The notes under the pieces are model-generated. The model made no database searches and was not told the DNA's origin. It was given only the letters and a program-made list of their open reading frames with translations. Shown piece by piece: positions 12,213 through 26,821 of a stretch of 40,890 nucleotides of DNA (positions are counted from its first letter, which is position 1; each line of letters opens with the position of its first letter). Both the position numbers and the translations under genes were made by a program. The DNA is from Candidatus Korarchaeota archaeon NZ13-K (lineage in GTDB: Archaea > Korarchaeota > Korarchaeia > Korarchaeales > Korarchaeaceae): positions 1-40,890 of the forward strand of contig MAIU01000004.1 of NCBI GenBank assembly GCA_003344655.1, written 5' to 3'.

Positions 12213-13460
12213 TCAGATCTTAGGTCTCGGTAGGAGCTCCGGGGAGTTCCTCATCACACCAACCCGCGGTTTCCCATGCAATCTCCTTAACTCCCTCCTT
12301 ATCGCCTCTTCCAGATCCCCATACCATTCAAAACCCATGGATCTAACTTCACGCTCATCCAAGCCCTCGGAGACTATCACAACCCTTATCCTAGACCTCA
12401 CCTTCGACCAGACCATGGAGTTCGCGGCCCCTATAAGGTCCCTCACGAGACCCTCCCTGACCCTCCTATCTATCTCCTCCGGCGGCAGCCCTGCCAGCTC
12501 CACCACCTCCGGGTGTGTCTTAGAGACCCCCTCAGGGCAAGGGGTCGCGAGTATCAGGGTGCCTCCGTCCCTGAGCACGATATCTGCTGGGTAGAGAGCT
12601 TTATGGGCCTGCCAAAAGTCGATATCTGCTGGATAACTCGTTGTTATGACGAGATCTAGCTCTCCTGGGGCTTCCACCTCGTAGACCCTCCTTGATTCCC
12701 TCACGGCCTGCCTGAAGACCTCCCTGAAGCCGCCGCATCCCACCCAAGTGGGCCTGCCCGCTCCATCAACAACAAGCTCTATCAATCCCCTTAATCCGGA
12801 TCTCTCAGCAACCAAGTCCATGAGATCCCTCACCTCATTGCTCTCGATTCCAAGGAAAGATCTTCTCAATCTTGCGCTCATCAAATGCATCTCACCGACG
12901 GTTCTCTCCCCGGAGACGCCCGGGAGTATTATCTTGGAGCCCCCGGAGAACCCGGAGACGTGGTGAGGTGTGACGCAACCTATGCCTATTGAGAGATCCG
13001 CCTTTGATAGCTCCCTGGCCACCTCTATAGGGGCACCGCTCGGCATGACCCCGACCCTGACCTGCCTCTCAGGATCCCTGAAGTCCGGCTGGATGACCTC
13101 GATCCTGCTCAAGGCATCACCGTACTTCAACTCGAGCTCCGACTGGGTCATCGGCCTGTGAGTCCCGAGAGCGACCAAAAGGGTTAATTGCTCATCCCTT
13201 ATCCCGATCTCATTCAGGAAGTCCAGGAAGATGGGAAGTATTCGAGCGGTGGGCGTGGGTCTAGTTATATCGTCAGCCACTATGGCTATCCTCCTTCCAG
13301 GCTTCAGAAAATCGCCCAGATTTCGAAGAGAAATTCTCAGGTCATTTTCTAAATTTGTCAAAGGCTTCACGTCTTTCGGTTCTATCATATTCACTTGTAG
13401 ATCGTCGGGTAGGCTGAAATGAACCCTGGAGTTCCCGTAAGGTAGGGAGAGCTCAGGCAT
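12213..13460 (-). CDS. LarA-family nickel-pincer-dependent hydroxyacid racemase/epimerase
   Basis: This 415-residue product belongs to the LarA/DUF2088 superfamily, whose founding member is the nickel-pincer lactate racemase of Lactobacillus. The expected residues are present: DDITRPTP (Arg67), GTHR (His101), PHHVSGFSGGSK (His166/167 and Lys176, the residue that carries the pincer cofactor) and GEMHLMS (His192). Known members racemise or epimerise alpha-hydroxyacids including short aldonates. The start overlaps the end of the PdxA-family gene by eight bases, so the two are translated together, and DUF1537 kinase lies upstream. The context suggests that the substrate is a four-carbon sugar acid rather than lactate (inference). 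The cofactor genes larB, larC and larE are not in the window. Confidence 0.85.
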   Translation of the reverse strand: MPELSLPYGNSRVHFSLPDDLQVNMIEPKDVKPLTNLENDLRISLRNLGDFLKPGRRIAIVADDITRPTPTARILPIFLDFLNEIGIRDEQLTLLVALGTHRPMTQSELELKYGDALSRIEVIQPDFRDPERQVRVGVMPSGAPIEVARELSKADLSIGIGCVTPHHVSGFSGGSKIILPGVSGERTVGEMHLMSARLRRSFLGIESNEVRDLMDLVAERSGLRGLIELVVDGAGRPTWVGCGGFREVFRQAVRESRRVYEVEAPGELDLVITTSYPADIDFWQAHKALYPADIVLRDGGTLILATPCPEGVSKTHPEVVELAGLPPEEIDRRVREGLVRDLIGAANSMVWSKVRSRIRVVIVSEGLDEREVRSMGFEWYGDLEEAIRRELRRLHGKPRVGVMRNSPELLPRPKI

Positions 13461-14406
13461 GCTCCCGGCCGGACAGCCTGCGGGCCAAGCTTATAGCGTT
13501 TACCATGCTGCCCTCATCAGCTAGGCAGCTACCTGCTATATCATATGCGGTACCGTGATCGACGGAGGTCCTCACGTAAGGCAATCCGAGGGTCACGTTG
13601 ACCGCCCTGTTGAAGCCTAAGAGCTTCACTGGGATGTGGCCCTGGTCATGGTACATCGCCACAACAGCGCGAAACTCCCCCCTGAGAGCTCTCAAGAATA
13701 TCGTATCGGCTGGGATTGGGCCTTCAACATCATACCCCAATTCCCTGAGCTTCTCGACGGCCGGCCTTATTATGGATATCTCCTCATTTCCAAATAAGCC
13801 GCCTTCGCCCGCATGGGGATTGAGAGAGGCTATGCCGATCCTCCCGGACTCCCCCAACCTCTCCAGGAATGCGAAGGTCTGCTCGGCGGTGAACACTATC
13901 TCCTCCTCCGATAGGACATCGGGGACCTCCCTCAGGGATATGTGGGTGGTGACGTGGGCCACTCTGAGCTCATCCAGGTAGAGAAGCATCTTGGTCCTCC
14001 TAACACCCGCCAGCTCAGCTAGAAGCTCCGTGTGACCTCTGAAGGGTATCCCGGCCATGTTGATGGCCTCCTTGCTGACGGGTCCCGTCACCAGTGCGTC
14101 GGCCTTCCCTTGGAGGATGATCTCAGAGGCCCTCTTTATGCAGAGGTAGGAGTGAAGTCCTCCCTGCGGGGTGGGGCCGGCCCGGGGTATCTCCACGTCC
14201 CCCGGGTCGATGACGGGAAAGGAGTCCGGTAAGATCCTCGGCTCGGTGACCTCGGTGAACCTCATATCGATTCCGCAAATGTCGCAAGCTCTCCTGAGGG
14301 CTCTGATGCTTCCTATCACTGTGACTGGATGGTTGATCCTCCTCAGGGCCTTGACGGTGACCTCAGGACCAATGCCAGCCGGATCCCCTGCCGTGATCAA
14401 TATCAT
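13453..14406 (-). CDS. PdxA-family dehydrogenase, probable D-threonate/D-erythronate 4-phosphate dehydrogenase (PdxA2 type)
   Basis: The 317-residue product is a clear PdxA homologue. It starts with ITAGDPAGIGPEV, and has the metal-site His of FRGHTELL and the C-terminal signature YHDQGHIPVKLLGF followed by LPYVRTSVDHGTAYD. True PdxA acts in the DXP-dependent vitamin B6 pathway, which Archaea do not use. The paralogue PdxA2 oxidises four-carbon acid-sugar 4-phosphates, with decarboxylation to dihydroxyacetone phosphate. A DUF1537 kinase gene 39 bases upstream supports the PdxA2 role. ATG at 14406 is preceded by GGGGTG at seven bases; a TTG at 14421 is a weaker choice. The stop codon overlaps the LarA-type gene. 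Confidence 0.88.
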   Translation of the reverse strand: MILITAGDPAGIGPEVTVKALRRINHPVTVIGSIRALRRACDICGIDMRFTEVTEPRILPDSFPVIDPGDVEIPRAGPTPQGGLHSYLCIKRASEIILQGKADALVTGPVSKEAINMAGIPFRGHTELLAELAGVRRTKMLLYLDELRVAHVTTHISLREVPDVLSEEEIVFTAEQTFAFLERLGESGRIGIASLNPHAGEGGLFGNEEISIIRPAVEKLRELGYDVEGPIPADTIFLRALRGEFRAVVAMYHDQGHIPVKLLGFNRAVNVTLGLPYVRTSVDHGTAYDIAGSCLADEGSMVNAISLARRLSGREHA

Positions 14407-14445
14407 TGGCGAGCACCCCAATGAATCCTGCGTACCTGCTGAACA

Positions 14446-15513
14446 TCAGCCGAGTTCTTTAATGATCCTCAGGACCCTCAACAGCGTCTCTGGATCTCCG
14501 AAACCCCCAGCTTTCGATATCAGAGGAGTTCCATCGAGGGGGCCACCCACGATCCAGCCCGCTGCCACCCCGTCCTCAGGATAGCTGCCCATCCTTATCG
14601 CCGAGACCTCGAGCTGTCTGAGAACAGCCCTCAGGGTCTCTCCACCGACCACCACGAGAGCGCTAGGCCTCGAATCGATTATGAGATCCACGAGCTCACG
14701 GATCCCCTTCAAAGCCTTACCTAGATCGAAGAGCATCGCGGCATCAGCACCTTCCAAGAGCCTCCTCCTGGAGGACCTGATCCCTTCCTCATCGTAGCCG
14801 AATACGGGCACCTCCCTGGCCAGGACGGAGAACTGCTCCCTAGTTACCTCGTTCCCGGATCCGGATAGAAAGAGCACCGGGCCGTGGGCTCTGACCTCAT
14901 CCCCCCTCTCGCATCCCAAGAACTCTGAGAGCTCAATAGCTAGACCGGCGCTTCCCCCCATCACCCTGAGGCCCTCATCGATTATGGTCTCCATGGCCTC
15001 CGAGAGGTCCCTCCTCTCCCTGATGTTCCTGAAGGTCCTTATCATCGCATCCCGATCCTCCCAGTAACCAACGCGGAGGTTAGTGGTGGATCTCAGGATC
15101 TCCAGAATGTTAGAGGAAGTTATCGGAAGTTCTTTGGCGTATGAGGTCTCCTCAAGGAGCTTTCCCCTCACGTAGAGAGTTCCATCTATCACGATCCTGC
15201 CCTGCTCTGGGTAGGCTGGTGTGAACGGCATCTCAGCGTTAAGGAATTCGCATATCTCGCCAAGTTCAGCTCCAACGTTCCCTCTCATGGTGGAATCCAC
15301 CTTCTTATAGAGGTACTGCCAGGAGGGAAACAGATTCAGGATCTCTCTGACGCGAGACCTGGCCTCCTCCGGCCTAAGTAACCTGCTGTCCGTCGTGACT
15401 CCTACGAAGTCCGCATCCGCCTCCCCCGAGAGGAGGACGGCTGAACCCTTACCGAACCTGCACGTCGTATCCAGAGCGCCTGTAAGGTCGTCCGCTATTA
15501 TGAGGACCCTCAT
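14446..15513 (-). CDS. Four-carbon acid sugar kinase (DUF1537 family)
   Basis: At 355 residues this is somewhat shorter than bacterial members (about 420). N-terminal domain signatures are ADDLTGALD (residues 7-15), KKVDSTMRGNVG (70-81) and a PAYPEQGRIVIDGTLYV segment. The C-terminal domain carries VVVGGETLRAVLRQL and ends with SKAGGFGDPETL, the ATP-binding end of the family. Members phosphorylate D-threonate or D-erythronate and related acids at C4. Together with the PdxA-family and LarA-family genes it forms a short catabolic cluster. The ATG follows GGTTAGGG. No clear TATA box lies in the 60 bases to uS10, so it may be read from the aEF1A/uS10 transcript. Confidence 0.9.
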   Translation of the reverse strand: MRVLIIADDLTGALDTTCRFGKGSAVLLSGEADADFVGVTTDSRLLRPEEARSRVREILNLFPSWQYLYKKVDSTMRGNVGAELGEICEFLNAEMPFTPAYPEQGRIVIDGTLYVRGKLLEETSYAKELPITSSNILEILRSTTNLRVGYWEDRDAMIRTFRNIRERRDLSEAMETIIDEGLRVMGGSAGLAIELSEFLGCERGDEVRAHGPVLFLSGSGNEVTREQFSVLAREVPVFGYDEEGIRSSRRRLLEGADAAMLFDLGKALKGIRELVDLIIDSRPSALVVVGGETLRAVLRQLEVSAIRMGSYPEDGVAAGWIVGGPLDGTPLISKAGGFGDPETLLRVLRIIKELG

Positions 15514-17986: not shown

Positions 17987-19327
17987 TCAGCTCAGCAACT
18001 TACTTATCTCCTCCATTAACCTCTCAGCATCCCTCCTCTCGATCCCCTCAACGAGGACCCTCACCTTATGCTCCGTCTTCGATGTCCTGACGAGGGCCCA
18101 GAGCTCCTCAGATGACATCCTGATACCGTCAGTCAAGTCCAGGTCCATGCCCTCCCTCTCAGCCATCCCGATGAGCTCCCTCTCAATCTCCTTCCACTCC
18201 TTGACGAGCGGGAAGTTCCTCCTGAGGACGTGATACTTGGGGAACTCCCCGACGATCTCGCTCAACTTGGAGCCCCTCGATGACATGAGCTCGAGTATCA
18301 GGGAGGCGGCCAGGGGACCGTCCCTGCCCAGGTGGAACTCCGGTAGTATGACGCCGCCGCAGCTCCCCTCGCCGCCGACGGTGGCCCCAACCTCCCTCAT
18401 CTTGTGGGCGACGTAGGCCTCACCCACCGGGGTCCTGTAGATCTCGGCACCCCTCCTCCTCGCTATGTGGTCGAATACCCTCGAGGAGGCCACGTTAACC
18501 ACGAGCTTCCCGCCTCCCCTCCTCTCCAGCACGTAATCGACGACCAGGGCTAGAGTCATGTCCTCAGGAAGGACATCTCCCCTCTCCGTGACTAGAGTGA
18601 GCCTGTCAGCATCAGTATCGTGAGCTAGGCCAAGATCCGATCCCGTGGCCACCACGATCCTGGAGAGGTCCTCCAAGGTATCGGGTCTCGGCTCCAACTC
18701 CCTCACGAATATCCCGGGAGCGGAGTTGATCGTTATGGTCCTCACTCCGAGCTCGTTGAGGAGATAGGGCGTCACGTAAGCACCTGCTCCCCCGTTAACA
18801 TCCAGGCAAGCCTTCAGCCCGCTCCCTCTCACCCTATCGGCATCAACGAACCTGAGCAGGTCCTCGATGTACTCAGCGGTGACGTCGTAACTCTCCTCCC
18901 TACCCACCTCGTTCCAGGGCACGGACTCGAAGCGACCCCTCTGGAACTCATCCCTCAGAGATTCCATCTCATCCGGGTGTAGAAGCACTCCATCACTTCC
19001 AAGGAGCTTCAAAGCGTTCCATTCGGGTGGATTGTGGCTCGCTGAAATTATAACGCCCCCATCGGCGCCGTACCTGTCCGTAGCCCACCCTATGGCCGGC
19101 GTGGGCGCTATCCCTATGTTCAGCACGTTGACACCGGCGGACAGGAGACCTGCGACGACAGCCCTCTCCACGGCCTCACCGCTGGGCCTGGTGTCCCTGC
19201 CGACGACGACGAGGGATCCCTTCCCCAGCCTCCTCCCGAACACGTTGGCGAGCAGCATGGCCACATTAGCGTCGAAACCGCTGCCAAAGACACCCCTAAT
19301 CCCCAGGGGCGTGAATATCAGGCTCAT
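17987..19327 (-). CDS. Phosphohexomutase (phosphoglucosamine/phosphomannomutase family)
   Basis: The 446-residue product is an alpha-D-phosphohexomutase with all four family motifs: LGIRGVFG near the N-terminus, the active serine in ISASHNPPEWN, the Mg site DTDADRLTL, and the sugar-binding GGEGSCGGVI. The C-terminal phosphate-binding loop is RTSKTEHKVRV. Archaeal members interconvert glucosamine, mannose or glucose 6- and 1-phosphates; the SASHNPP and GEGSCG forms are shared by GlmM- and ManB-like proteins, so the substrate is not fixed. GlmS at 37474 would supply glucosamine-6-phosphate. The ATG lies 32 bases inside the upstream OPT-like gene, and the GIRG motif is too close to the start to allow a later codon, so the overlap is real. 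Confidence 0.93.
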   Translation of the reverse strand: MSLIFTPLGIRGVFGSGFDANVAMLLANVFGRRLGKGSLVVVGRDTRPSGEAVERAVVAGLLSAGVNVLNIGIAPTPAIGWATDRYGADGGVIISASHNPPEWNALKLLGSDGVLLHPDEMESLRDEFQRGRFESVPWNEVGREESYDVTAEYIEDLLRFVDADRVRGSGLKACLDVNGGAGAYVTPYLLNELGVRTITINSAPGIFVRELEPRPDTLEDLSRIVVATGSDLGLAHDTDADRLTLVTERGDVLPEDMTLALVVDYVLERRGGGKLVVNVASSRVFDHIARRRGAEIYRTPVGEAYVAHKMREVGATVGGEGSCGGVILPEFHLGRDGPLAASLILELMSSRGSKLSEIVGEFPKYHVLRRNFPLVKEWKEIERELIGMAEREGMDLDLTDGIRMSSEELWALVRTSKTEHKVRVLVEGIERRDAERLMEEISKLLS

Positions 19328-21272
19328 CCGAGACCCTCCCGGACCTCGCGTAAGCTCTAACCGCTGGGAGCATCACGGCCAGTATTATGAGGGAGCCGAT
19401 CACCCATGAGAAAGATGATATAGGGCTGGCTTTGGCGATCAGGACCAAGCTGGTGCCCATCGCATTCAGGACGCCTCCCACCGCGAAACCGGCGAGGAAG
19501 GGTATAGCCCTCCTGCGCATGAAATCACCACCCCCGTACCTCTCGGCGAGGTACCTCAGCAGGCTGGTCATCATGTATAGGGCGGCGTATTGTGGCAGAA
19601 GGAGCCCCAGGAGAACCCCTATCGCGCTGACTCCGAACACCGGAAAGAGGGTTCTCAATGCGAAGGCGAGGGCGCCCACAGCGAATCCCTCCATGAAGTG
19701 ATCGAGCCTCCACCCCATCATCTCACCCATCATCATGAGCAGGCCCTCCTCCGGGTACGTCGTCTCCGCCATCTCCAAGGGCCTCTTGGCGGCGCCCCAG
19801 AGGTGGAATGATGTAATCAGCAGCAGTCCCCCAGCCACGGCCCCAAAGAGCATCCCGAGGACCTGGGCCCTCAGCATGGTCTTCGCCCTCATTCCTGTAT
19901 CCGATGAGAACTTGAATCCCTCAGCTGAAGCTGTCGGTTGGGCCGAGATGGAATCAGTTATCATCGCATTGGCGGCGCCAGAGAAGAAGGCATCGGCCGA
20001 TGCCCTGCTGAAGATCCCGGATGAGAAGAAGGTGCTGTAAAGTAAACCCCTCACGCCCAAGTTGACGGGTACTATCCAGTTGCTCATGCCCAGGGTCCAT
20101 ATGTAACCCTGCCAGTACACCAGCTGAAGCACCAGTATCGCTGAGGCCAGGACGGGACTCATCCCCAGGACTGATAGCAGGAATGAGCTCCCTATGAACG
20201 TGAGGATCCATCCCAGTAGAACCCACCTCCTGGGTAGGGGCTCGTCCCTCCACTCCCTGAAGCTCCTGAGCAAGTATCTGCCTCCTAGGAGGATCGGGAT
20301 GACACCAACGGCGACGTAGAGACCCGTGCTCAGGTGATACCATGGTACGGGACCGTTAAGAGCTGAGTTGGAGACGTAGAAGGAGAAATCATGACCTGCC
20401 TCATAGGGGAGCAGGCCCATCCTCACGAGGACCGGGGGTATCAGCAGGTAGGCGACGATCGCGGTCACCCAAACGGAAACCTGAACCCCTAGGGGTATGA
20501 GGAAGGACCAGGCGATGAGGTCAGGGGTTATCTGTGCAGCGCTATCCATTCCAAAGGCCCCTCCAGGGAAAGGTCCCTGGAGGTGGGGCGTGAGGTCGAA
20601 CCTGAGGTCGACGGCCGGGAACTCCTCCCATATGGCCTCCAGGAGGTGACCCTTCTGGAAGAGCGCTATCGTGAAGCCCGAGAGGATGCCAAGCCAGAGG
20701 AATCTGAGCTCCCTCCCCCTCTCCCTCACTATCTTGGAGAAGCTCGCCGCCACCGTGGCCACGGGGAATACCAGCTTCTCCCTCTCTATGTAGAACCTCC
20801 TCAGGGGTATCACGTTGAAGTAGGAGAATAGTGAAAGGACTATCGCAAACAGCATAGCGTATATCAGGGGGAGGGCCCAGGCCCCCCAGTTGAGATCACC
20901 TCCAAGCAGGAGGCTCCTGAGGGCATCCTCCTCCCTCGGCACCAGGAAACTGGGAAGGATCTGCTTCAGAGGGAAATCCCTGGAGAGGGCAGCTACGGCC
21001 CAGGAGGGGAGCAGGTACTGCCAGCCTATGAACAATACTGTGATCACCTCGACGGATCCGAAGATGACGCCAATCTCACCCAGGGATAGTGGCCTCCTGC
21101 TCAGACTTGAGATGGCATAAGATACGGCTATCACCACGAGAGCGGCCTCCCCGGTCCAGCTGTAACCCCCAGCCCCCCTTATCACGCTCTGACCGAATAT
21201 TATCAGGAGTCCGAAGACCATCGATAGGAGGATCGCCCTTGGAGTAAAGGATGCCTCCTGAGACTCCTCCAA
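19296..21272 (-). CDS. OPT-like polytopic membrane transporter
   Basis: The 658-residue protein has roughly 14-16 hydrophobic helices. It resembles archaeal and bacterial OPT-related membrane proteins (DUF6785-type): a FNVIPLRRFYIEREKLVFPVA segment (about residues 150-170), the LNGPVPWYHLSTG loop and the GVSAIGVLLGLLLP helix near the C-terminus. OPT proteins move oligopeptides or metal chelates, but this branch is uncharacterised, so the substrate is open. The TTG start at 21272 follows GGTGATCC. It is 13 bases after the GAPDH-like gene and overlaps the phosphohexomutase gene by 32 bases, all in one leftward operon from pgk. Confidence 0.7.
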   Translation of the reverse strand: MEESQEASFTPRAILLSMVFGLLIIFGQSVIRGAGGYSWTGEAALVVIAVSYAISSLSRRPLSLGEIGVIFGSVEVITVLFIGWQYLLPSWAVAALSRDFPLKQILPSFLVPREEDALRSLLLGGDLNWGAWALPLIYAMLFAIVLSLFSYFNVIPLRRFYIEREKLVFPVATVAASFSKIVRERGRELRFLWLGILSGFTIALFQKGHLLEAIWEEFPAVDLRFDLTPHLQGPFPGGAFGMDSAAQITPDLIAWSFLIPLGVQVSVWVTAIVAYLLIPPVLVRMGLLPYEAGHDFSFYVSNSALNGPVPWYHLSTGLYVAVGVIPILLGGRYLLRSFREWRDEPLPRRWVLLGWILTFIGSSFLLSVLGMSPVLASAILVLQLVYWQGYIWTLGMSNWIVPVNLGVRGLLYSTFFSSGIFSRASADAFFSGAANAMITDSISAQPTASAEGFKFSSDTGMRAKTMLRAQVLGMLFGAVAGGLLLITSFHLWGAAKRPLEMAETTYPEEGLLMMMGEMMGWRLDHFMEGFAVGALAFALRTLFPVFGVSAIGVLLGLLLPQYAALYMMTSLLRYLAERYGGGDFMRRRAIPFLAGFAVGGVLNAMGTSLVLIAKASPISSFSWVIGSLIILAVMLPAVRAYARSGRVSDEPDIHAPGD

Positions 21273-21285
21273 AGGATCACCTGAC

Positions 21286-22041
21286 TCAGTGAAGCAGCCC
21301 GCTTTTTATACTTAAGTGATGGTCCGTGATGGAGGAGGAGATCTCCCTGCTCACCCCTACGGACTCTCTCATGGTGTCTATAGCCTCCGGTATCGTGGAG
21401 AATATCCCATAAAGCGAGAGGAGGCTGAGAGATCTCCCGTCATCTGAGAGCTGCAGGGATCTGAGGAGGACTATCAGCGAGAAGAGGGTGTGGCTCCTGA
21501 AGAAGGGGTAGTAAATGCAGAGGTCACTCAGGTCAACCTCCTCATTCAAGGAGCTGATCCTCCTAGCTGAGAGGAGGGAATCCACGAGGAACTCGCGGCT
21601 CTCCTCCCTAGAGAGCTTCACGTCCAGCAAGGCCGGCCTGAAGAAGGGGCAGCAGTAGAGGGAGCTTGAGACCCACCTTATGGAAACCTCGGCCAGGGGG
21701 AGATCCGCCAACCTGTATGAGGTCACATCCCTGGGATCCAGCCTGACTCCAGTCCCCTCGAAGGTGAGCCTCACGCTCAAGTCTCTTGGATCGTACTCAA
21801 GCAGGAAATCCACACCCTCAAGGAGGTCCTCAAGGAAACCACTTATCCTGATTCCCTTCTCCTTGAAAAACTCGAACTGGGATCTGCTGCAGAACAGGTC
21901 ACCGATGCCGGCCAACTCCCTCGAGAGGAAAGTGGGTCCGTGCGAGTAGAAGCCCACGACCTCGATGTCCGGCTGCCTCCTCAGGGCCTCAGCTATGTGC
22001 GGGGTATGGGGATCATGCCCCAGTATCCCAACCCTTATCAT
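21286..22041 (-). CDS. Degenerate archaeal type II GAPDH relative, probably not catalytic
   Basis: This 251-residue product aligns by eye with archaeal glyceraldehyde-3-phosphate dehydrogenase (about 340 residues). Matching parts are the N-terminal pattern RVGILGH..AEALRRQPDIEVVGF (residues 3-31), GIRISGFLEDLLEGVDFLLE (63-82) and the C-terminal STIPEAIDTMRESVG (215-229). The NAD-binding GxGxxG loop has become GHDPHTP, the catalytic Cys of the SCNTTG motif appears to be Ser (RWVSSS, 122-127), and about 90 residues of the catalytic domain are missing. It starts four bases inside pgk, a typical GAPDH neighbour. It could be a regulatory or scaffold subunit, or a slowly decaying paralogue; the intact frame argues for retained use. 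The alignment is from memory of the family, not a search. Confidence 0.65.
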   Translation of the reverse strand: MIRVGILGHDPHTPHIAEALRRQPDIEVVGFYSHGPTFLSRELAGIGDLFCSRSQFEFFKEKGIRISGFLEDLLEGVDFLLEYDPRDLSVRLTFEGTGVRLDPRDVTSYRLADLPLAEVSIRWVSSSLYCCPFFRPALLDVKLSREESREFLVDSLLSARRISSLNEEVDLSDLCIYYPFFRSHTLFSLIVLLRSLQLSDDGRSLSLLSLYGIFSTIPEAIDTMRESVGVSREISSSITDHHLSIKSGLLH

Positions 22042-23246
22042 CTGGCCACGCTCTCCCTCAGCGCATCGACCGCGGGCAGGGGAAGACCCGCGAGCCCGTA
22101 CATCACGGCGCCCCCTGCCGTGTACACCCTGCTCCCCTTTGCGCCGACCATGTCAGCGGCCGCGCTCAGGTGACCCCCGCAGAGCACCGATATCTTGGCA
22201 AATTTTTCCATGGCATTCACTATCTCTAGGGTCCCTCTCCTGGACTCCGGTCTCTCGAAGATGCCCATCGGCCCGTTCGCTATCGCTATATCGGCGCCCT
22301 TGAGCCTCTCCTTATAGAGCTCAATGGTCCCCACTCCTATGTCCACGATCTCTCCGTTCTCGGGGATGGCGTAGACGGGGTAATTCTCGAGACTGCCGTC
22401 CTCACCCTTAACTAGGAAATCGACCGGGTAGAGGACCCTGCCGGAGGCCTCGCTCAGTATCTCCCTAGCCGCTGGGATCAGTAGGTCCAGATCCTTCATT
22501 TTCCTCATTTTACCATCGAGCTTATGACCGGCAGCCACGGCTAGGAGCATGCCCACGAGTCCTCCCGTGAGCACCTCCGCGGCCTTCCCGTTCCTTATGG
22601 AGTGGACCATGACCTTCAGCTTGTCGGGGACCTTCGCCCCCCCGAGTATCAGGATCCTCCTTCCCTTGACCGAGTCCAGCTCCAGCATCTCATTCAGCAT
22701 CTTCTGCATGTTCCTACCGGCGGCCGAGGGTAGGAGGTAGGGGAAGGCCACCAGCGAGGGCTGGCTCCTGTGGGCCGCCTGGAAGGCATCGTTGACGTAT
22801 GCATCGAACAGCGGGGCCAACCTCTGAACCAAGTGCGTCTTTATCAGATCCCTAGGATCACCCTCAATGTTCTCCTCGGCCATGAACCTGAGGTTCTCGA
22901 GCATCAGGACATCCCCTCTCTTCATGCTCATTATCTTGGACCTAACCTCGCTTGAGAACACCCCGTCAACGTATTCGACCTCTATCCCGAGCTCCTTGGA
23001 TAACTCGGCGGCGTGGGGCTCCGTTGTTATGAAATCACTGCTCCCAGGTCTACCTTGATGGGTCCCCACGACGACGGAGGCTCCTCTCTCAATCAACTCC
23101 TTTAACGTCTTCGCGGCCTGCTTTATCTTCTCATTATCCATGATCTCCCCGTTATCTCCAACGGGAACGTTCATATCTGCCCTCAAAAAGACCCTCTTGT
23201 TCTCGATGTAGAGGTCATCGAGGGTGGGTACCCTCCTGGTCTTCAT
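22038..23246 (-). CDS. pgk: Phosphoglycerate kinase
   Basis: The 402-residue product carries the family signatures: RADMNVPV (residues 23-30), the arginine-containing GTHQGRPG, ENLRFMAEEN, VNDAFQAAHR, GGAKVPDKLKVM and the nucleotide-binding ANGPMGIFE. It interconverts 1,3-bisphosphoglycerate plus ADP with 3-phosphoglycerate plus ATP in the cytoplasm. The ATG follows GGTGATGTC, and a TATA-like TTTAATTTT (23276-23284, minus strand) lies about 34 bases upstream, giving a leader of about eight bases. It is the first gene of an operon with the GAPDH relative (four-base overlap), an OPT-like transporter and a phosphohexomutase. Confidence 0.97.
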   Translation of the reverse strand: MKTRRVPTLDDLYIENKRVFLRADMNVPVGDNGEIMDNEKIKQAAKTLKELIERGASVVVGTHQGRPGSSDFITTEPHAAELSKELGIEVEYVDGVFSSEVRSKIMSMKRGDVLMLENLRFMAEENIEGDPRDLIKTHLVQRLAPLFDAYVNDAFQAAHRSQPSLVAFPYLLPSAAGRNMQKMLNEMLELDSVKGRRILILGGAKVPDKLKVMVHSIRNGKAAEVLTGGLVGMLLAVAAGHKLDGKMRKMKDLDLLIPAAREILSEASGRVLYPVDFLVKGEDGSLENYPVYAIPENGEIVDIGVGTIELYKERLKGADIAIANGPMGIFERPESRRGTLEIVNAMEKFAKISVLCGGHLSAAADMVGAKGSRVYTAGGAVMYGLAGLPLPAVDALRESVAR

Positions 23247-25936: not shown

Positions 25937-26821
25937 ATGAAATGGATCGATAGAGAGTCAGGAAGGGTACTGGGAATAAACGCCTTCGATCTTTTTTTAC
26001 TCATCATAATCTCAATTCTCGGCGGTTATTACGCCTATGAGAACCTGGTCCCTCCCCCCCAGGAGGTGAGCTCCTTCTCCGGGTTGAACATAAGGAACGC
26101 TGCTCTCGAATTTAGCAGGCTATCGGGCCTCGGCTACTTGGTTTACGCCAAGATCGATGGGACTTGGACGGTCAATGCGACGGAGTTTCACGACGATGTC
26201 CTCATAACTTGGGCTTATGAGACCAGGCTGATGGGCTGGTACAGGGGTGGCAGGATCACCATAGGGGGACCCAACGCGTACGTTGAGGATATAGCTGCAA
26301 CCAAAATAACCTTCAAAACAGCCACTCCATCTGTAATAAGAATTTACATAAATCAGATTAATGGAAGCAGTTTATCAGAAATATCCGAGAAACTAGAGGA
26401 TATTTGCAGGGATATTGCGGGAGGATACGGGGTCAGGAACGTGCTGATAAGGTCCTCCCTCGTCCTCAGCGTCCCCGGGTTTAAGCCCAACGCCTTCATC
26501 TACAATGCTCTAAGGAACGCGATATACAGCAGGATACCCTGGGGCTATCCCTACTTCTCATTAGGCGATTCCTACATCGTGATGATATTCGATTACACCC
26601 AGAGGAACTTCCTGACGACTGAGGACCTGAGGAAGATAGATTCCATACTCAGGGAGCTCAACATAACGTACGATTCCGCCATTCTCAACGAGGGCTACGT
26701 CTTCATAGGTACCGAGAGACCCCTGACCGGGGTCTCCGTTTACGCCGAACTACTGGATAACGCTAGGAGGTACTCCAAGCTGCTCGACCTCTCGAAGCTA
26801 ACCTACACAGTCAAGCCCTAG
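25937..26821 (+). CDS. Single-span membrane protein with DUF4330-like N-terminus
   Basis: The 294-residue product starts WIDRESGRVLGINAFDLFLL, which resembles the DxxGRLFGKINIIDL opening of DUF4330 proteins, then one transmembrane helix (about residues 16-35). The rest is predicted to lie outside the membrane, with NAT, NGS and NIT sequons, and has repeated alpha/beta segments such as LEDICRDIAGGYGVRNVLIRSSLVL and DLRKIDSILRELNITYDSAIL (given in part) that may be two copies of one fold. The function of DUF4330 is unknown. It is followed after ten bases by two Wzy-like membrane genes, which suggests a role in surface glycan assembly (inference). Confidence 0.55.
   Translation: MKWIDRESGRVLGINAFDLFLLIIISILGGYYAYENLVPPPQEVSSFSGLNIRNAALEFSRLSGLGYLVYAKIDGTWTVNATEFHDDVLITWAYETRLMGWYRGGRITIGGPNAYVEDIAATKITFKTATPSVIRIYINQINGSSLSEISEKLEDICRDIAGGYGVRNVLIRSSLVLSVPGFKPNAFIYNALRNAIYSRIPWGYPYFSLGDSYIVMIFDYTQRNFLTTEDLRKIDSILRELNITYDSAILNEGYVFIGTERPLTGVSVYAELLDNARRYSKLLDLSKLTYTVKP

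Follow-up and report, generated by a model that had tools for sequence, protein, structure and literature searches.

The gene directly 3' of pgk in the 40,890-nt stretch of archaeal DNA analysed here (the window; contig MAIU01000004.1 of Candidatus Korarchaeota archaeon NZ13-K) is orthologous, by position and sequence, to archaeal type II GAPDH (GAPDH-II), has lost the catalytic residues, retains the GAPDH fold in a predicted structure and is under purifying selection, and the same genome encodes an intact type I GAPDH. We consider it very probable that the GAPDH-II of this genus was displaced by the type I enzyme and, at its original locus, became a conserved pseudoenzyme.

Results

The short GAPDH-II relative (P0001) is an intact frame of 251 codons on the minus strand (22041 to 21286), with its ATG at 22041, its stop at 21286–21288, and a 4-nt overlap (22038–22041) between the pgk stop and its own ATG (Table 1). 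The preliminary description of this DNA, made from the sequence alone, had read the frame and its start four bases inside pgk correctly, and the strand can now be given as minus. The genes for pgk, the short protein, an OPT-type membrane transporter and a phosphohexomutase are all co-directional and look like a single operon. A chance reading frame is ruled out by homologues in 14 other genomes and by dN/dS values well below 1, and an artefact of assembly or of the MAG by the occurrence of the gene in G010, whose 1.59 Mb form one contig, as well as in two- and ten-contig genomes.

Table 1. Positions of the short gene, its neighbors and selected sites in the window
Feature	Position	Strand	Basis or remark
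Short catalytically empty GAPDH-II orthologue, 251 aa, P0001	21286..22041	-	Frame, profile match, predicted fold
pgk, phosphoglycerate kinase, 5' of short gene	22038..23246	-	Stop overlaps short-gene ATG
OPT-type membrane transporter (PF20581 / PF03169)	19296..21272	-	13 nt 3' of short gene
Phosphohexomutase (PGM/PMM family), last gene of likely operon	17987..19327	-	Overlaps transporter gene by 32 nt
Gap zone (~residues 100–130) where the SCNTT, RR, PSHHG segment is missing	21652..21744	-	Alignment; exact breakpoint uncertain
Former dinucleotide-binding loop, residues 8–13, G-H-D-P-H-T for G-Y-G-T-I-G	22003..22020	-	Alignment
Cys51 codon; Cys51 and two further cysteines are invariant in the 15 short forms	21889..21891	-	Alignment
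Cys131 codon, invariant C-P-x-F motif; full-length counterpart Thr or Val	21649..21651	-	Alignment
Cys175 codon, invariant; full-length counterpart mostly Ala or Ser	21517..21519	-	Alignment

Other parts of the window hold features of separate interest. A tight cluster on the minus strand (12213–15513) encodes a LarA-like lactate racemase homologue, a PdxA-family protein and a four-carbon acid sugar kinase-like protein (SBD_N/NBD_C); it resembles acid-sugar catabolism sets, and matching genes were found in that region in some genomes of the genus only. On the plus strand, two O-antigen polymerase-like membrane proteins (PF01901; 26832–28133 and 27911–29320) have listed frames that overlap by ~220 nt, and the true start of the second probably lies further downstream. 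Also on the plus strand, a 294-aa protein (25937–26821) that follows the thermosome gene and keeps its place across the genus had only a marginal match to a TrmB regulator domain.

A Pfam search with the short protein returned no family match, and the NCBIfam type II GAPDH models (NF003251/TIGR01546) matched residues 1–87 (E = 2.2e-10) with scores short of the family threshold (40.1 vs a curated cut-off of 185 bits; 32.3 vs 232.9 bits). These models were matched by all 15 members of the short family. GAPDH-II chains in the PDB align to the N-terminal part of the protein and, when the family profile is used, to the C-terminal part as well, so that the patterns of archaeal type II GAPDH initially recognized at both termini are confirmed, at the N-terminus by NCBIfam and at both ends by the PDB matches. 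Homology extends over the whole length: in hhalign, a profile of the 15 short proteins aligned end to end with eight full-length GAPDH-II proteins (columns 1–252 vs 1–340, E = 1.4e-19). An AlphaFold2 model (pLDDT 92.5, pTM 0.90, input alignment of 11 sequences) had archaeal GAPDH-II as its six best PDB matches (E = 9e-15 to 1e-11; TM 0.73–0.75 by query), ranked before type I enzymes. The predicted fold is thus that of GAPDH-II, and the Pfam and NCBIfam profile searches gave no match to any other enzyme family.

We compared residues between 15 short forms and 15 full-length GAPDH-II proteins. The short protein lacks ~90 residues, among them the SCNTT motif with the catalytic Cys, the paired arginines (RR) and the two His of PSHHG; in GAPDH, parts of the region lost here form the lining of the active site and contacts within the tetramer. 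SCNTT, RR, HH and GxGxIG are invariant in all 15 full-length proteins and absent from every short one. Where the full-length proteins have GYGTIG, the short form reads GHDPHTP, keeping only the first of the three glycines of GxGxxG. The alignment bears out the loop and the loss of ~90 residues as they were first described, but not the serine that had been placed at the position of the catalytic Cys: the whole SCNTT segment falls inside the missing part and has no aligned position, and the run of Ser at residues 125–127 is not conserved within the genus. The reading of Ser for Cys is an alignment artefact. Across the 15 short proteins 47 residues are invariant. Those kept from GAPDH-II belong mostly to the scaffold (G8, Q23-x-D25, G30, G63, G68, D78, R161, P218-E219, D222, R225, S235 and T239), and others are new to the short form, among them P11, C51-S52, K60, E82-Y83, R110-L111, C131-P-x-F, C175, S188, G212 and E226.

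A search of related genomes for the same form beside pgk found it throughout the genus. Apart from the source genome, the genus is represented by 15 genomes: 14 carry a ~250-aa form with ~38–76% identity and no internal stops, and the remaining one (G002) carries a strongly diverged 209-aa frame in the same slot after pgk (contig C10, L102/L048). Because this frame occupies the slot and matches the short-family profile end to end (E = 7.7e-5), simple gene loss in G002 is ruled out; the three otherwise invariant cysteines are missing from the corresponding positions, and shrinkage of the short protein may have gone further in this genome. In the pgk tree G002 branches off first within the genus, with modest support (87/88), a placement that the concatenated 24-gene tree, having no outgroup, cannot settle. 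Each of the eight genomes from the family's other genera has a full-length GAPDH-II, as does one genome of another family of the order, with SCNTT in those proteins that were read; in the family's other genera, pgk directly precedes gap wherever pgk was found at the locus. The ancestral order was thermosome-mtap-pgk-gap-pgm-EF1A, and the shared slot in sister genera, together with the end-to-end profile match, places the short gene in common descent with gap of the pgk-gap order. That the short gene is a paralogue beside a full-length GAPDH-II is ruled out, as no full-length protein was found in the 16 genomes of the genus. A motif-based scan of 84,980 species returned ten loci, all of the short type.

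The supposition that a true GAPDH lies elsewhere in the genome proved correct. The source genome carries a type I enzyme (G000:C49) with the catalytic motif SCTTN intact, and PF00044 exceeded its cut-off in 14 of the 16 genomes of the genus, the two without it being 63% and 70% complete. The type I genes of the genus are intact, with the motif SCTTN (SCTTT in G011), and no type I GAPDH exceeded the cut-off in any of nine further genomes examined from the family and order. The gene lies away from pgk; in G010 it stands between genes named by eye as a CDC48-like ATPase and a leucyl-tRNA synthetase-like gene. The solved structures nearest to the type I GAPDH of the genus are bacterial and mostly thermophilic, and the gene was likely acquired by transfer. 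Its gain and the loss of type II both predate the ancestor of the genus. A GAPN-like aldehyde dehydrogenase as a universal substitute is unsupported, being absent from several near-complete genomes of the genus; homologues of aldehyde ferredoxin oxidoreductase were found in nearly all of the genus genomes and beyond.

In G011 (contig C2, L090), SCTTT in place of SCTTN is accompanied by an altered N-terminal loop (GFGRTGRQ, INSRAE), unlike other members of the genus. A genome of the same class and a different family (G025; contig C43, L094) has a type I GAPDH ~54% identical to that of the genus, together with a distant OPT-type transporter and no detectable type II GAPDH. There may have been more than one acquisition of type I GAPDH in the phylum.

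By the NG86 method, dN/dS of the short gene was 0.055–0.117 in the 12 closest pairs (dS < 0.9) and did not exceed 0.173 in any of the 30 closest pairs whose dS was usable. The values for pgk in the same comparison were about 0.01–0.06, indicating that the short gene is constrained at the amino-acid level, less so than pgk. The test for selection among relatives that had been proposed for this gene therefore yields purifying selection (0.055–0.17). Because the short gene evolves fast and has a long stem (2.7 changes per column), some relaxed constraint is also likely.

The OPT-type transporter gene adjoins the short gene in all 16 genomes of the genus. Its place, with the short gene on one side and the phosphohexomutase gene on the other, is specific to this genus: where sister genera share the gene order, the transporter gene is absent from that place, and no homologue was found in the genomes of sister genera of the family. 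Covariation of evolutionary rates was assessed for 24 syntenic genes in 10 genomes (17 branches, 276 pairs), a set that replaced a first run of nine genes, which was a weak control; the signal persisted, and was less clean without the G002 branch. On the full set, rho for the short gene with the transporter was 0.66, first among the 23 partners of the short gene and in the top 0.7% of the 276 pairs, and without the fast G002 branch rho was 0.46, second of 23, with 5.8% of pairs as high. The corresponding values for the short gene and pgk were 0.08 and 0.00. Divergence ratios for G002 were 2.10 for the short gene, 1.43 for the transporter, 1.01 for pgk and 0.86 for gapI. As a sign of a link between short gene and transporter, the covariation is suggestive only.

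Discussion

In the explanation that we favor, the short gene is the genus's own type II GAPDH gene, descended in place within the ancestral gene order. When the genus radiated, an intact bacterial-type (type I) GAPDH was already encoded at another locus and could have carried catalysis, and we infer that it made the loss of type II possible. The native gene lost the segment containing the catalytic Cys, the His and the phosphate-binding arginines, along with the NAD(P) loop, and the remainder was kept by selection as a compact folded protein, very probably a pseudoenzyme, which presumably now acts by binding something. As to what it binds, we tentatively propose, as a fair possibility and from gene order and rates, that the short protein works with the OPT-type transporter encoded 3' of it, as a soluble sensor or regulator. 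Because the transporter gene lies directly 3' in this genus only and because its rate, unlike that of pgk, covaries with the rate of the short gene, regulation linked to the transporter is somewhat favored over a partnership with Pgk. The three new cysteines, which G002 does not have, could suit metal or thiol sensing, and such sensing would fit solutes carried by OPT-family transporters. Somewhat doubtful is the fuller proposal that a core glycolytic enzyme, after displacement by a foreign isoenzyme, came to serve in place and with no duplication as a sensing or regulatory subunit of an OPT-family transporter whose gene was a new insertion, tying a central carbon operon to solute uptake. A stand-alone ligand-binding role appears rather unlikely.

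The preliminary description had suggested a regulatory or scaffold partner of Pgk, or of a true GAPDH, rather than an enzyme. The non-catalytic character and the existence of a true GAPDH stand, but beyond gene order no specific link to Pgk emerged. A scaffold that regulates or channels 1,3-bisphosphoglycerate, whether through an ancestral contact with Pgk or a contact gained with the type I enzyme, would have a possible partner in the latter, and the short gene overlaps or nearly overlaps pgk across the genus. However, this neighborhood is inherited from the ancestral pgk-gap order, needs no new reason and is therefore no evidence of a new partnership. The lack of rate covariation with pgk, with or without G002, also speaks against such a scaffold, as do the unusual divergence of the short gene and transporter, and not of pgk and gapI, in G002 and the loss of the parts that line the active site and form the tetramer contacts, and we judge it unlikely. 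That the protein is instead a new enzyme, with the Rossmann-like fold kept and a different active site built from new invariant residues (C51, E82-Y83, R110, C131-P-x-F and C175), is improbable: three invariant cysteines and other invariant residues not common to the full-length proteins speak for it, but the dinucleotide loop is destroyed, the cysteines are not kept in G002 and no other enzyme family is matched. The fast evolution, the long stem and the still smaller G002 protein could also be taken for decay, with the remnant staying in frame only because ribosomes must pass through it for translation of pgk to be coupled to that of the transporter and phosphohexomutase genes, as its tight spacing with both neighbors would allow. 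A coupling spacer has no need of a conserved amino-acid sequence, though, and the dN/dS of 0.055–0.17, with purifying selection at the amino-acid level in every close pair, argues against both plain decay and such a spacer. The 47 invariant residues, new ones included, and the compact, confidently predicted fold also weigh against decay, which we regard as very improbable. The view of the gene as a non-catalytic GAPDH relative, intact across the genus, is thus sustained.

Displaced enzymes are usually lost. Here one gene slot in related genomes holds the full enzyme, a hollowed-out 250-aa form and a 209-aa form, with the incoming isoenzyme alongside, and the series offers a clean natural case of the use of an enzyme fold once catalysis has been removed. 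It also carries a risk for annotation: the short genes match GAPDH models and could pass for the glycolytic GAPDH of the genus, when the real one is the type I enzyme elsewhere. Our literature search found neither a GAPDH-derived pseudoenzyme in archaea nor a short GAPDH in Korarchaeum, and as far as the literature searched shows, the conversion of a displaced enzyme itself, in its own operon slot, to a smaller conserved pseudoenzyme is new.

With archaeal type II GAPDH (NF003251 / TIGR01546; PDB 1b7g, 1cf2, 2czc and 2yyy) the short protein shares its fold, a co-linear sequence and the slot after pgk seen in sister genera; it differs in being ~90 residues shorter, in having no catalytic Cys, His, phosphate-binding arginines or GxGxxG loop, and in scoring far under the family cut-off. 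Type I GAPDH among archaea is almost confined to saccharolytic haloarchaea according to a 2024 paper (PMC10817205), which describes haloarchaeal gapI as glycolytic and gapII as gluconeogenic, both being working enzymes. Both cases involve a bacterial-type GAPDH in archaea that had the type II enzyme as well; however, haloarchaea keep gapI and gapII both working, whereas in the present genus the gapII slot holds the catalytically empty short form alone. Pseudoenzymes in general (reviewed in PMC10211241) conserve a fold without its catalytic motifs and are kept by selection. The short form resembles them in having lost its catalytic residues while keeping the predicted fold, and in being maintained by selection (dN/dS 0.055–0.17; intact in 14 of the 15 other genomes of the genus). 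It differs in that the protein retained here is the displaced orthologue itself and not a duplicated copy.
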